Source: a virus. Taken from it: 47,645 nt of DNA. The DNA lies in the IMG/VR virus record IMGVR_UViG_3300033145_000804, positions 1-47,645 of that record; one strand, written 5' to 3'. The notes beneath the pieces were generated by a model. The model made no database searches, had not been told where the DNA came from, and was given only the letters and a program-made list of their open reading frames with translations. This document shows positions 6,974 through 43,832 of this stretch, in pieces (position 1 is the stretch's first letter; the number at the start of each line of letters is the position of its first letter). The position numbers were made by a program, and so were the translations under genes.

Positions 6974-9088
6974 ATGCCTATTGAAGAGACTGCGAATGAG
7001 ATAAGGGCACGAATACAGAATCCGAATAAGTTTGATTCGGAGTCATTTAGATATAAACCGTTTCCTCCTGATAATCCAATAAAGGGACTATATGCTATTT
7101 ATGCATGTCCAAAGGGCAATTGGTCTAATGGTAGATGTAAGGTTGGAGTGCAGGTTCAGTCATTTAGGTTTTCTAAGAAAGAAGGTTGGAACATGACAAA
7201 GGCTAAGGACTGGCTTGCTGAGCATAATTATACTGTTTTGAGTGGTGATACTACTAGTGCATCAGAATCTGCTATTCTCTCACAGAGCAACAACGATGGC
7301 ACATCATTTACTGTTCCAATTGAGTATAAGTTCTATCCACCTACTATTCCAGATACCGTTCTTTATCCGAAAGCTGAGTTGGATATAGCATTGAGTGAAA
7401 TTCTTAAGTTGCAAGATATGCTTAAGGAGAAAGATGCTAAGTTACAAGAGCTTGAGCCCAAAGCTACAGGGTCTGTTGTTACCCTTGAGGCGAATAAAGT
7501 TTACGGTATAGCTATAGTCGAGGGATTCTATAATGGAGAGTATTTCCTTTGGGAAGACATAAAGAAAGCACATAAGGCACTTGGTGGAAAGTATCATAAT
7601 CTAATGAAGAGAGATGATAAGGAAGTTCCTTTGCCAATTGTTCTTGAACACAGCAAGAATCTTAAAGAAAAGGTTGGCGCTGTAACTAAGACACTCTTAC
7701 ATGAAGGAAAGAAAGCATTGTTATATGAAGCTGAGATTTTCGATGATGTTATATATGAGGCAATAAAGAGGGAACTTATAAGAGGTGTATCTATTGGATG
7801 CAATAGAACTCCAGTGAACTATAAGGGTGCTAAGAAAGCAACAGAGATATTCTTATACGAAATAGCATTAACGGATAGGCCAGCAGTTAGAGCATCCACT
7901 CTGATAGCTGATGGTCTCAGCAAGGAGAATATATCCAAGTTAGAGTGGAATACAGACGAGAGGGAAAGGGTTTTAAATAAAGAATATAGATATCTAGAAC
8001 AGGATGCAGAGACAGGAGATGGAGATATGTCTGATATTAATGTAAAGACTTTGGGTGTTATACCCGATAATCCTGCTGGTTACGGGAAGTCTACAGGAGA
8101 TTGGGTTGCCCCGAATTTAGAGGACTTTACGAGCAAATCTTGGGGTGACTTAACAGATGTAGAGAAGAAAAATATTGCCTCGCACTTTGCTTGGTCGAGG
8201 ACAAGTCCTCCTGAGAAGTATGGAGACTTAAAGCTTCCGCATCACAATCCTAAGTCACATGCTGTGGTCTGGAGAGGAGTAGCAGCAGCTATGGCAACTC
8301 TGTTGGGTGCTAGAGGTGGAGTGGATATACCAGATAGCGATAAGAAAAAGGTATACAATCACCTTGTTGCACACTATAAGGAGTTCGAGAAGAAGCCACC
8401 AGAGTTGACAGCAATGTTGATGCAGGTGCTGGCTGAAGGCAGACCTAAGACTGACAGGGAGAGACTTATATCGCATTATGGCGAGGATATTGCACTTATG
8501 CTAATAGCCTTGATTGGCGATGATGCATATAAGCTCTTGCCACCTAGAGGCACTAAAGTAGAAAAACGAGGTTTATCTGAAGAACATGAAAAAGGAGGAA
8601 AAGAAATGGCAGATGAGAATAAGGATGAGTCAACAAAGGGGCCAGATTCTGAGAATCAGGTAAGTAAGCCTGAGGAGCAAAAAGCGACTGAGCCTTCTGC
8701 AGAAGATAAGGCTAAGGAAGAGGCTAAGATAAAAGCTGAACAGGAAGCTAAAGCCAAGGCTGAGGAGGAAGCACAGGAGAAAGCAAAGGCCGAAGAGGAA
8801 GCTAGGATTGAAGCAGAGGTTAACAAGAGAGTCGAAGAGAAGCTCAAGCAGATAGAAGAGACACGCAAAGCCGAAGAGGCGAAGAAAGCAGAGGAAGCTA
8901 AGAAAGCTGAAGAGGCCAAGGCGAAAGAGGAAGAAGAAGCTAAGGCAAAGGAAGAGGCAGCTCCGAAGGAAGAGGCACAGAAGCCAGAGAGCGAGGGTGA
9001 AACCACAGAGGCATCACCTGAAGAGGACAAAGTAACTGTTGATAAGACTGACCCAGTAGATGCTCTGTTCAAATTGGGAACAGATTAA
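6974..9088 (+). CDS. HK97-type prohead protease fused to scaffold
   Basis: 704 residues from ATG 6974, chosen for its GAGGG site; a TTG at 6938 is the alternative. Residues about 1-130 form an N-terminal domain with IRARIQNPNKF. Residues about 165-320 carry the serine protease fold of prohead proteases: His226 in IVLEHSKN, Ser273 in RGVSIGCNR, and the family signature YEIALTDRPAVRAS. A conserved domain at about 355-475 (HFAWSRTSPPEKYGDLKLPHH, then RGVAAAMATLLGARGG) accompanies this protease in many viruses. The last 160 residues are Lys/Glu/Ala-rich coiled coil, as in a capsid scaffold. It should guide capsid assembly and then digest the scaffold. Confidence 0.85.
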   Translation: MPIEETANEIRARIQNPNKFDSESFRYKPFPPDNPIKGLYAIYACPKGNWSNGRCKVGVQVQSFRFSKKEGWNMTKAKDWLAEHNYTVLSGDTTSASESAILSQSNNDGTSFTVPIEYKFYPPTIPDTVLYPKAELDIALSEILKLQDMLKEKDAKLQELEPKATGSVVTLEANKVYGIAIVEGFYNGEYFLWEDIKKAHKALGGKYHNLMKRDDKEVPLPIVLEHSKNLKEKVGAVTKTLLHEGKKALLYEAEIFDDVIYEAIKRELIRGVSIGCNRTPVNYKGAKKATEIFLYEIALTDRPAVRASTLIADGLSKENISKLEWNTDERERVLNKEYRYLEQDAETGDGDMSDINVKTLGVIPDNPAGYGKSTGDWVAPNLEDFTSKSWGDLTDVEKKNIASHFAWSRTSPPEKYGDLKLPHHNPKSHAVVWRGVAAAMATLLGARGGVDIPDSDKKKVYNHLVAHYKEFEKKPPELTAMLMQVLAEGRPKTDRERLISHYGEDIALMLIALIGDDAYKLLPPRGTKVEKRGLSEEHEKGGKEMADENKDESTKGPDSENQVSKPEEQKATEPSAEDKAKEEAKIKAEQEAKAKAEEEAQEKAKAEEEARIEAEVNKRVEEKLKQIEETRKAEEAKKAEEAKKAEEAKAKEEEEAKAKEEAAPKEEAQKPESEGETTEASPEEDKVTVDKTDPVDALFKLGTD
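8606..9088 (+). CDS. Nested scaffold protein from an internal start of the protease gene
   Basis: A strong ribosome site (GGAGG at 8594-8598) sits 7 bases before an in-frame ATG exactly where the coiled-coil scaffold part begins (MADENKDES). The site is written into the protease codons as EKGGKEM. Independent initiation would give a 160-residue scaffold lacking the protease, equivalent to Nu3 nested in the lambda C gene. This would supply scaffold in excess over protease. It is inferred from the site; expression is not shown. Confidence 0.6.
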   Translation: MADENKDESTKGPDSENQVSKPEEQKATEPSAEDKAKEEAKIKAEQEAKAKAEEEAQEKAKAEEEARIEAEVNKRVEEKLKQIEETRKAEEAKKAEEAKKAEEAKAKEEEEAKAKEEAAPKEEAQKPESEGETTEASPEEDKVTVDKTDPVDALFKLGTD

Positions 9089-33143: not shown

Positions 33144-33196
33144 TATAGAGTTACAATCGAAGCAAGGAATGAGCGTAAGTAAATAGGAGGGTTTTG

Positions 33197-33502
33197 ATGG
33201 CAAATGATAAGGAGAACAAGCCAGTTAAAAAAGAGACAGAAAAGCCTATTGTCTATGTTGGGGAGAAGAAGATATCCTCTTATGTTTTAGCAGGGTCTAT
33301 TCAACTCAACAAAGGAACTGAAGTAGTTATCAAGGCGAGAGGTAAGAATATCTCAAGGGCCGTTGATGTTGCAGAGCTTCTGAAGAAGAACTTTGCACCA
33401 AATCTAGAGATAGTTGAGACAGTAACTGGAACTGAGCCTTTTGTTGTAGATGGTAAGACAAAGGGTGTCTCCACAATCAGTCTGAAACTGAGAAAGAAGT
33501 AA
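33197..33502 (+). CDS. albA: Alba-family chromatin protein
   Basis: 101 residues from ATG 33197 after a GGAGGG site. The Alba pattern is near complete: IVYVGEKKISSYVLAG (with an AGSIQLN segment), TEVVIKARGKNISRAVDVAE, then a VSTISLKLRKK end. The lysine equivalent to Alba Lys16 lies in EKKI. Alba coats DNA and RNA in archaea and is regulated by acetylation of that Lys. A viral copy would organise viral genomes or compete with host chromatin. A GNAT acetyltransferase is encoded 4 kb away. N-terminal extension of about 18 charged residues. Confidence 0.93.
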   Translation: MANDKENKPVKKETEKPIVYVGEKKISSYVLAGSIQLNKGTEVVIKARGKNISRAVDVAELLKKNFAPNLEIVETVTGTEPFVVDGKTKGVSTISLKLRKK

Positions 33503-35279: not shown

Positions 35280-35636
35280 ATGAATGATACAGATATAGAG
35301 ATAATGATTTTTAGCGATTTCTCAATTAAGTATTGTCCTAAGTGTGGAAGTGGCTTAGTATATGCTCCGCATAGTGTCCAGCCTGTTCATGACACAAAGG
35401 ACGATAGAGGTGGATTTGACTGCTACTGTGATAACTGTGGTTGGAGTGGAGACATATACCCTGATTCTCTAGGGGACTTTAGGAGAATATTCAAGCAGTA
35501 TAAAAAGAGATATATAAACGCAAACAAAGAAGGTAATAAGAGGGCGTGTAGCTCAACGGGAGAGCACCTGTTTTGCAAGCAGGAGGATATGGGTTCGAGT
35601 CCCATCACTGTCCATCTGCAAAACACCAAGGCATGA
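35280..35636 (+). CDS. Zinc-ribbon protein whose 3' end runs through a tRNA gene
   Basis: 118 residues as read. Residues about 17-62 form a zinc ribbon (YCPKCGSGLVYAP ... CYCDNCGWSG), followed by a helix (DFRRIFKQYKKRYINAN). The last 30 or so residues (RACSSTGEHLFCKQEDMG ...) are simply the translation of the tRNA-Ala gene. The true protein function must lie in the first 85 residues. The ATG overlaps an upstream 17-codon frame (35230-35283). The C-terminal tail may be tolerated, or the tRNA may have replaced the original end. Confidence 0.6.
   Translation: MNDTDIEIMIFSDFSIKYCPKCGSGLVYAPHSVQPVHDTKDDRGGFDCYCDNCGWSGDIYPDSLGDFRRIFKQYKKRYINANKEGNKRACSSTGEHLFCKQEDMGSSPITVHLQNTKA
35511..35518 (+). 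promoter_or_regulatory. TATA box for the tRNA-Ala gene, inside a coding region
   Basis: TATATAAA lies 24-31 bases before the first tRNA base (35542), the normal distance from TATA box to start of transcription in archaea. It encodes part of the zinc-ribbon protein (RYIN) at the same time. Confidence 0.65.
35542..35614 (+). tRNA. tRNA-Ala (anticodon TGC)
   Basis: D stem GCTC/GAGC (35551-35554, 35562-35565) with a 7-base loop. Anticodon stem CCTGT/GCAGG with loop TTTGCAA and TGC at 35574-35576. Variable region AGGAT. T arm ATGGG-TTCGAGT-CCCAT (35589-35605). Acceptor GGGCGTG pairs with CACTGTCC (35606-35613) only if one T is bulged; then G1-C72, G2-C71, G3-U70, C4-G69, G5-C67, U6-A66 and G7-C65 form. 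G3-U70 is the alanine identity pair and A73 follows. CCA is not encoded. Confidence 0.85.
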
Positions 35637-41883: not shown

Positions 41884-42765
41884 ATGTTGATGATGAGAAA
41901 CATTCCAGCAACCGATTTTGATGCAAAGAAGGTCAAGTATCCTCGTCTAGACAGAATAATTAGGGTTCAGCCATATCCAGAGGTGCTCATTGATAAACTG
42001 ATATACTGGCAAGAGAAGAGATGTGGAAGCAATATAGGAATAAGGTTAGTGAGTGACGACAGATTAGAAATCAGAACTAGAAAGCAAGAGAGTGCTCATC
42101 CAGACTTTGTGGAAGCGTTCAATAGAACAGGAAGGGTCGATAATATCAGAGCAATGATGAAGTCCTTTCCAAAGCCACATGAGGTTGTTGTCTTTGCAGA
42201 ACTTCTACGAGAGGGAAGGAGTCCCAGTAGAGTGGAGTTACATGAGAGGGATGACTGCGTTGTCTTTGATATATTCACAAGGGAAGAGGGATTTCTAGAA
42301 TATCCAAGAGTTGTCTGCAAGTGTAATGTCTTTGGAATTCCAGTAGTGAGATGTTATGCGGAAACTAGACATACTTCCCTTAGTGAGATACTAGAGTTCA
42401 GGGACAGAATGGTTGCTCTAGCCGAAGAGAATGGTAGAGAGGGAGTTGTCGGAAAGACATGGTTTGATGGACAATGTATATTCTTCAAGGAAAAGATAGA
42501 CATGCCAAAGCTGGAGAGAGAGAGTAAGCCACCATCAGAGTGGTCTTTTCTACCAGTATTACCAGACTCAGAGGTCATGGGTGCCATAGAGAAGGTAAGA
42601 GAAAGCATAGGAGACGAACAGTTCAATGATAAAACAATAGCTATGCCACTTATAGCAAAGTATGTAAAAGAGGAATGTGAAAAGCATAAATATAGAGCCC
42701 CCAAGAAATTATTCAGGTATTACATAGAGCGTCTGGAAGACATCAAGATATCCAAGGAGAGATGA
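41884..42765 (+). CDS. ATP-dependent RNA ligase (Rnl-type nucleotidyltransferase)
   Basis: 293 residues. Motif I IYWQEKRCGSNIGIRL with adenylated Lys45 (KRCGSN resembles the KxDGxN/ KxxG class). Motif III EVVVFAELL, IIIa CVVFDIFTRE, motif IV GREGVVGKTW and motif V IFFKEKI are all visible. The C-terminal helical domain (about 215-290) fits RNA ligases of the Rnl1/Rnl2/Rnl3 group, not DNA ligases. Two genes downstream is an RlaP-like nucleotidyltransferase, a known companion of RNA ligases. Likely seals tRNA or rRNA breaks. Confidence 0.8.
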   Translation: MLMMRNIPATDFDAKKVKYPRLDRIIRVQPYPEVLIDKLIYWQEKRCGSNIGIRLVSDDRLEIRTRKQESAHPDFVEAFNRTGRVDNIRAMMKSFPKPHEVVVFAELLREGRSPSRVELHERDDCVVFDIFTREEGFLEYPRVVCKCNVFGIPVVRCYAETRHTSLSEILEFRDRMVALAEENGREGVVGKTWFDGQCIFFKEKIDMPKLERESKPPSEWSFLPVLPDSEVMGAIEKVRESIGDEQFNDKTIAMPLIAKYVKEECEKHKYRAPKKLFRYYIERLEDIKISKER

Positions 42766-42766
42766 G

Positions 42767-42943
42767 ATGACTAAATATAAATGTGGACATGAGACTGACA
42801 TTATAGTTCTAGATAGTAACCTATTATCCTTAGCTGCTTACTTCGAGTGGCTTGAATCCGTTGGAGAGGACGGAACAAGGGAGCTATGTTTCGAGTGCTT
42901 CAACAAAAAATGGAGACATAAAGAATGGGTGAGGTCTAAGTGA
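42767..42943 (+). CDS. 58-residue zinc-binding microprotein
   Basis: ATG follows an AAGGAGAG-type site. Product MTKYKCGHETDIIVLDSNLL ... LCFECFNKKWRHKEWVRSK: a CGH near the start and CxxC near the end, one zinc site. Stop overlaps the GTG of the DUF4326 gene (GTGA). It belongs to the ligase operon by spacing. Confidence 0.6.
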   Translation: MTKYKCGHETDIIVLDSNLLSLAAYFEWLESVGEDGTRELCFECFNKKWRHKEWVRSK

Positions 42944-43224
42944 AAAGAATACAACGCAAAAGAATAAAAGGATGGAAAATGCCCAAGAATGCAGTCTATG
43001 TAGGTCGTCCTACGAAATGGGGCAACCCATTTACAGTTGGTGTTGATGGAGATAGATTAACTGTAGTTGAGAAATACGAAATGTGGTTACGTGAGAGACT
43101 TAGGAAAGACCCATGCTTTCTGGATGAGCTGAAGGGAAGAAATTTAGCCTGTTGGTGTTCATTGGATAAGCCTTGTCATGCTGATGTCATTCTGTTGTTG
43201 TTTGAGCATGGTATGGTGGAATAA
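42940..43224 (+). CDS. DUF4326-family protein
   Basis: 94 residues from GTG. The DUF4326 signature is strong: NAVYVGRPTKWGNPFTVG, a WLRERLRKDP helix and GRNLACWCSLDKPCHADVIL. The family is widespread in phages and mobile elements; its biochemical role is not established, but conserved Cys/His and NP residues suggest nucleotide or metal binding. Lying between RNA ligase and nucleotidyltransferase it may belong to nucleotide repair or a conflict system. Confidence 0.85.
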   Translation: MKRIQRKRIKGWKMPKNAVYVGRPTKWGNPFTVGVDGDRLTVVEKYEMWLRERLRKDPCFLDELKGRNLACWCSLDKPCHADVILLLFEHGMVE

Positions 43225-43832
43225 TGACGAACACTGTCTTCAAAACTGTCGTGGGCTCTCACATGTGGGGTATGAATCATAAGGATAGTGATATAGACTA
43301 CTTCATCTGCTACTCTGTTCCAACGAGGGACATTCTATCTGGTGTTGCAAATATTAAGTCATCTCATACGAAGCATGGTATTGCGGATTATGCAAAGCAT
43401 GAAGTTGGTATAGTCGTTAATCAGTTGTTGAAAGGGAATGTTAATTTCCTATGGGGAGTGATGAGTCCAGTGGTAGAGAAGTCATCTAAGTGGCACAGAG
43501 AGTTGAAGAGAATAGTGAAGAAGAATGTATCTAAGAACTGTTATAACTCAATATATGGCCTAGCTGTTCACAATTATAAAAAATACATTGAGTCTGGAAG
43601 GGATGTATCGGAGAAACGATGTAATATTATTGCTCGCACAATTGAGTTTGGTATCAATCTTCTTAGTAGCAGAAAGATTGTCTTTAGGCCAGTCCATAGC
43701 GCTACTCCTGAAATGATTGAGAACATGTTGGACTGCCTATATGGTGCTTTGCTGGATAGTTCATTGCCAGATAAACCAAATGAGAAGCCATTCAGAGAAT
43801 GGCTTTTGAATTACAGATTGATGATTCTTTAG
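43224..43832 (+). CDS. RlaP-like nucleotidyltransferase (Pol-beta fold)
   Basis: 202 residues; TAATG coupling with DUF4326. The catalytic signature GSHMWGMNHKDSDIDYFICY fits GS...DSDID of the predicted nucleotidyltransferase group that includes RlaP (RNA-ligase-associated Pol-beta-like). The rest is helical (YNSIYGLAVHNYKKYIES; FREWLLNYRLMIL). RlaP proteins accompany RNA ligases in RNA-repair cassettes. Here the ligase lies 460 bases upstream. A role in end-healing before sealing is inferred. Confidence 0.8.
   Translation: MTNTVFKTVVGSHMWGMNHKDSDIDYFICYSVPTRDILSGVANIKSSHTKHGIADYAKHEVGIVVNQLLKGNVNFLWGVMSPVVEKSSKWHRELKRIVKKNVSKNCYNSIYGLAVHNYKKYIESGRDVSEKRCNIIARTIEFGINLLSSRKIVFRPVHSATPEMIENMLDCLYGALLDSSLPDKPNEKPFREWLLNYRLMIL

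Follow-up and report, generated by a model that had tools for sequence, protein, structure and literature searches.

Does a tRNA-Ala gene with one base too many in its acceptor stem, lying within an open reading frame of a viral contig, encode a working tRNA, and what does the extra base signify? The window analyzed here was the whole of that contig (47,645 bases), an IMG/VR record in which a simple test found no end repeats.

The Contig Derives from an Archaeal Tailed Virus

The genes of the window include those for an HK97-type capsid protein, a tape measure protein, a family-B polymerase, Rad51-like and XPF-like proteins, Alba and an RNA ligase (Table 1). Based on this gene set, the matches of the polymerase to haloarchaeal tailed viruses and the match of the RNA ligase to a Methanofastidiosa virus vir521 protein (35.6% identity), we assigned the contig to an archaeal tailed virus. 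Searches of IMG/VR returned no relatives of the capsid and tail protein and one distant contig for the polymerase. No terminase was recognized on the contig and it is therefore probably incomplete. The tRNA gene sits among the viral genes for the capsid, tape measure and polymerase, which identifies it as virus-encoded. In addition, the RNA ligase, a DUF4326 protein and the RlaP-like nucleotidyltransferase are encoded consecutively (41884–43832) and may represent an RNA-repair cassette.

Table 1. Features of the tRNA-Ala locus and of related genes in the window.
Feature	Position	Strand	Basis or remark
Zinc-ribbon ORF (CxxC...CxxC), 118 aa	35280..35636	+	tRNA and trailer make up the final 31 codons
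TATATAAA box, candidate archaeal promoter of the tRNA	35511..35518	+	sequence, spacing
tRNA-Ala(UGC), 73 nt including discriminator A73	35542..35614	+	ARAGORN, RF00005, 21/21 pairs
Acceptor 5' strand GGGCGTG (G3 of G3-U70 at 35544)	35542..35548	+	sequence, fold
Acceptor 3' strand CAC(T)GTCC, extra base 35609	35606..35613	+	minimum free energy fold, comparison with viral tRNAs
Alba-domain protein, archaeal-host marker	33194..33502	+	Pfam PF01918, E=4.6e-17; ORF assigned from sequence
RNA ligase (PF09414)	41884..42765	+	E=6.9e-9
RlaP-like nucleotidyltransferase (PF10127, RNA-repair associated)	43224..43832	+	E=6.4e-12

The tRNA Has a Complete Alanine Identity Set and a Bulged Acceptor Stem

ARAGORN identified a single tRNA in the window, an Ala(tgc) gene at 35542–35613. 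The covariance search proposed in the preliminary description of the locus was run, and Rfam model RF00005 matched the same interval (model positions 1–71) with 57.2 bits (E=7.9e-10), above the gathering score of 29 that serves as its cut-off. With all 21 cloverleaf pairs also being standard, the original assignment as a tRNA-Ala was borne out. The alanine identity set was complete (anticodon UGC, A73 and, with the bulge, G3-U70), and U8, A14, G18G19, U33, the A15-U48 Levitt pair and the T-loop UUCGAGU could be read from the sequence. Position 15 (35556, in the D loop) is thus an A that pairs with U48 and not a G; in most archaeal tRNAs G15 bears archaeosine. The gene does not encode CCA, the absence of which is usual in many archaea. 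The nearest sequenced tRNAs were approximately 75–85% identical to that of the window, and searches of viral contigs and genomes returned no match to its exact core. In a neutral simulation of 10 random changes all of the pairs survived in 0.2% of cases, which suggests that the structure of the tRNA is under selection.

The two strands of the acceptor are GGGCGTG and CACTGTCC-A. Five of seven pairs form between them without a bulge and all seven, including G3-U70, form when one base is bulged. Folding of the 73-mer for minimum free energy gave a cloverleaf with this acceptor bulge. The fold and pair counts therefore agreed with the extra base that had been noticed on first reading. As its seven acceptor pairs are interrupted, the tRNA fails the canonical 7/5 test. 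We placed the bulge immediately below the four terminal pairs, on the inner side of G3:U70, between positions 68 and 69. Bulging of C35608 (C68) gives equal pairing, which leaves an uncertainty of one base in this placement. We do not believe the extra base to be an error because tRNA-Ala on other virus contigs has an additional base in that place (see below).

When the flanks were included in folding, a competing hairpin was predicted in which the trailer TCTGC takes part and which could outrank the cloverleaf in stability. Together with the extra acceptor base, the overlapping ORF and the absence of an encoded CCA, such a precursor fold might be expected of a captured tRNA in decay, carried along by the virus as a pseudogene. 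We consider this quite improbable as the 21 pairs and all of the tertiary positions have been retained, the promoter is well placed and the same lesion is found in other, apparently independent, viral tRNA-Ala. It had been suggested in the preliminary description that the locus might produce a decoy RNA for a tRNA-cutting defence and not a translating tRNA. The RNA ligase and RlaP genes situated 6–8 kb downstream of the tRNA do hint that damage to RNA is of consequence for this virus; however, a canonical anticodon loop and a full identity set make a decoy very doubtful.

A Promoter of Its Own and a Largely Fortuitous Overlap

The center of the TATATAAA box lies 27–28 nt upstream of the first base of the tRNA. 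In archaeal promoters this is the distance expected for transcription that starts at the first tRNA base. There are 36 occurrences of TATAWAW on the + strand of the window, and the probability of a chance match within five positions at this distance from the tRNA is approximately 0.4%. At the level of sequence, the claim that the tRNA has its own TATA box was upheld, the box being well placed and of archaeal type.

The further claim, that the tRNA is embedded in a protein gene, stood only in part. A frame is open through the tRNA and a zinc-ribbon motif precedes it, but the portion that covers the tRNA does not resemble coding sequence: its 31 in-frame codons had a codon score that was exceeded by 99.5% of windows of this length in the genes of the virus. 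Based on this low score and a probability of 0.10 that 31 codons would be open by chance, we regard the overlap as real but mostly fortuitous, with the tRNA part not being protein-like. The ORF had no family match and no relatives in IMG/VR, and its structure model, which was of low confidence throughout (mean pLDDT of 41, lowest over the tRNA-derived tail), was given no evidential use. Processing of the zinc-ribbon mRNA at the tRNA would leave this message with no stop codon.

Integration into tRNA genes is frequent among archaeal viruses (PMC8651126), and it had been suggested that the locus might be an integration-site copy (attP), here derived from the tRNA-Ala of a host. The evidence did not favor this origin, which seems remote: there was no integrase among the scanned proteins of this contig fragment, the tRNA is complete, has its own promoter and is located mid-contig, and the bulge also occurs in the tRNA arrays of other viruses.

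The Bulge Recurs in Viral tRNA-Ala

Viral contigs were searched in three ways. A search for tRNAs that share the 5' acceptor strand of the window identified two bacterial-virus contigs (L092 and L112) whose tRNA-Ala, GGGCGTG/CAC-G-GTCC-ACCA, has an extra base in the same place. A second search, which was blind to the 3' end, identified further bulged tRNA-Ala among the matches listed. The third, in which a base at position 5 that is unable to pair with T68 was required, produced a larger set that included the acceptors GGGCCAT/ATG-T-GTCC-A, GGGCCAG/CTG-T-GTCC-A and GGGCCTG/CAG-T-GTCC-A; GGGTCAT/ATG-T-ATCC-A was a further bulged acceptor among viral tRNA-Ala. All of these belong to a class of tRNA-Ala with a single additional base between 68 and 69, of which the window tRNA (CAC-T-GTCC-A) is also a member. 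The extra base is mostly U and sometimes G, and the bulge is kept as the pairs flanking it vary on both sides.

In these samples the bulge was confined to alanine tRNAs. Clean acceptor bulges, in a classification that covered the acceptor 3' strand only, were present in 20 of 1,998 distinct ARAGORN tRNAs from all viral loci, including contigs chosen for the feature, and all 20 were tRNA-Ala. In contigs selected without reference to the 3' end, among the matches listed, 8/152 tRNA-Ala were bulged versus 0/1,629 non-Ala tRNAs (Fisher p=2e-9, which is optimistic because rows are related). On the same contigs and matches, without the doubtful L098, there were seven bulged tRNA-Ala (p=3e-8). Three of the eight (L092, L112 and L187) have a G bulge and were accepted on a weaker criterion, having six pairs without the bulge; in these the bulge was deduced from where A73 lies and, in two of them, from where CCA lies as well. 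In L092, L112 and L219 the gene encodes CCA, the register of which fits the bulge.

Three contigs had bulges in every one of their tRNA-Ala. All three Ala isoacceptors of L254 (CGC, GGC and TGC) were bulged, as were all three of L264 (two by the weaker criterion) and both tRNA-Ala of L275; L219, L152 and L259 have bulged and unbulged tRNA-Ala mixed. Since the nearest neighbors of several bulged cores are unbulged, the bulge is likely to have arisen more than once, with recombination of the acceptor arm as an alternative. The window was the only archaeal-virus case found. Short BLAST searches recognized no named cultured phage with the bulge, the full-query matches being one base shorter, that is, unbulged.

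Other features of these viral RNAs were observed. The lone bulged tRNA-Ala of L092 (2803–2875) and of L112 (7440–7512), two related siphovirus-like contigs, lies amid structural genes and directly upstream of a lipoprotein-like ORF. Six contigs (L190, L202, L257, L258, L266 and L284), mostly chosen for T68, have a tRNA-Ala with a 4-bp T stem and the same U bulge (CCG-T-GTCC-A), the 3' side still being 12 bases. Seven others (L226, L263, L278, L270, L271, L248 and L261) have a tRNA-Ala mismatched at 5:68 and 6:67 (GGGCTCG/CTTGTCC or similar), which is the same place as the bulge. A tmRNA gene (tag ADNAFAYAVAA) with an unbulged acceptor is present at 7279–7638 of L275, a contig with 22 tRNAs. 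ARAGORN reported further tmRNA genes in L148, L158, L166, L211, L238 and L261, some having a GGGC start and GTCCA end like viral tRNA-Ala.

Cellular tRNA-Ala Sampled Are Unbulged

For comparison we inspected the printed sequences of cellular GGGC...GTCCA tRNA-Ala. None of the 156 comparable matches listed, which come from a few phyla only, was bulged; the comparable viral count was 7/127 GGGC tRNA-Ala among the matches listed. There were no bulges in 133 tRNA-Ala listed for Patescibacteria (145 genomes, with matches in 88), 19 listed for the phylum Nanoarchaeota (60 genomes) and four listed for the group of G004 (six genomes). Patterns that fit only bulged or mismatched acceptors were also applied: two sets of Bacillota-group genomes (399 and 200) yielded no tRNA, and 279 Nanoarchaeota-phylum genomes yielded no bulged tRNA.

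Proposed Function of the tRNA and Its Bulge

As all of the AlaRS determinants and a normal anticodon have been kept, we take the window tRNA to be, most likely, a working spare tRNA, which is the best-fitting of the options in the preliminary description. Our reading, to which we assign a probability of roughly 0.65, is that it is a working virus-encoded tRNA-Ala(UGC) with its own TATA box, charged by the host and belonging to a recurrent class of bulged viral tRNAs. We infer its expression, charging and translational use as follows. The tRNA would be transcribed from its archaeal TATA box with a start at or near its first base, after which its 3' end would be trimmed and CCA added by the host. 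Host AlaRS would then charge it with alanine via G3-U70, and would tolerate the bulge if it reads the terminal pairs only. No AlaRS gene was found in any of the 17 bulged virus records. In bacteria, AlaRS reads G2-C71, G3-U70, G4-C69 and A73 (PMC9976931). The bulge lies just below these pairs, which can explain its tolerance in tRNA-Ala alone. The reading of terminal pairs does not explain the recurrent position of the bulge or its being mostly U. Either position 68/69 is the least harmful one, or the bulge shields the viral tRNA from a factor that holds host tRNA-Ala by its acceptor stem.

The first of these possibilities corresponds to relaxed constraint, in which the tRNA works and the bulge is a functionless, near-neutral insertion, AlaRS contacting the terminal pairs and elbow and not the anticodon. 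Relaxed constraint would account for the bulge occurring in tRNA-Ala only and in viruses, where selection is weaker, and is consistent with several viral tRNA-Ala that were fetched for the T68 pattern being instead mismatched at 5:68 and 6:67. It sits less easily with the constant position, the usual U, the several apparent origins and the conversion of whole isoacceptor sets, and we rate it as a serious contender at somewhat less than even odds. The working spare tRNA that we favor may, by its bulge, be set apart from that of the host where acceptor-directed enzymes grip. That the bulge lets the viral copy survive inactivation of the host tRNA-Ala is conceivable but on the unlikely side. It is a decidedly speculative proposal, and an improbable one, that bulged tRNA-Ala is a convergent adaptation of bacterial and archaeal viruses in which charging by AlaRS is kept and a host enzyme that recognizes the acceptor stem is blocked. 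If true, it implies an undiscovered alanine-tRNA-directed defence or regulator.

Other candidate explanations were tried and rejected. tmRNA is a substrate of AlaRS, and the unbulged tmRNA of L275, a single case, disfavors a requirement of AlaRS for the bulge. A link between RNA ligase and the bulge was dropped, with ligase hits over the cut-off in 2/17 bulged versus 4/17 unbulged virus records. Codon supplementation was also set aside, GCA making up 46% of Ala codons, which is like CCA (52%), ACA (44%) and GGA (41%).

Relation to Known Systems and Significance

Virus tRNAs are common, tRNA-Ala included, and the reason that viruses carry them is still debated. HGTV-1 is an archaeal tailed virus that, like the virus of the window, encodes both tRNA and RNA ligase, with 36 tRNAs and two Rnl2-family RNA ligases (PMC8651126). 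The window differs in having a single tRNA-Ala, no tRNA cluster and an acceptor bulge, which is not reported for HGTV-1. Phage tRNAs with anticodon-loop changes have been reported to evade anticodon nucleases (PMC10264068), and phage tRNAs are reported to rescue phages from retron effectors (PMC11555353). These and the window tRNA are all virus-encoded replacements with a possible role against tRNA inactivation. However, the nuclease-evading tRNAs are changed in the anticodon loop, whereas that of the window is ordinary and the change is in the acceptor stem. Cas12a3 is an acceptor-directed defence that cuts tRNA CCA tails, and its structure was solved with tRNA-Ala(UGC) (PMC12851939). Because Cas12a3 tolerates an altered stem provided that CCA is there (PMC12851939), evasion of this enzyme is an unlikely role for the bulge.

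Departures from the 7/5 acceptor-T geometry are also known in tRNA-Sec, allo-tRNA and selC tRNA-Cys, which have 8/4, 9/3 or 8/5 helices and, in selC, a T-stem bulge, and the review of these unusual natural geometries is without viral examples (PMC7609411). The window tRNA shares the departure but differs in having a 7-bp acceptor with a 1-nt bulge at 68/69 that in our samples was confined to viral tRNA-Ala. A literature search that covered few subscription journals found no published description of an acceptor-bulged viral tRNA-Ala. Being restricted to one position and one amino-acid family, and to viruses but (so far) not cells, the bulge is a testable mark of viral tRNA adaptation, and it raises the question of whether viral tRNA-Ala looks different to AlaRS, to elongation factors or to defences directed at tRNA.
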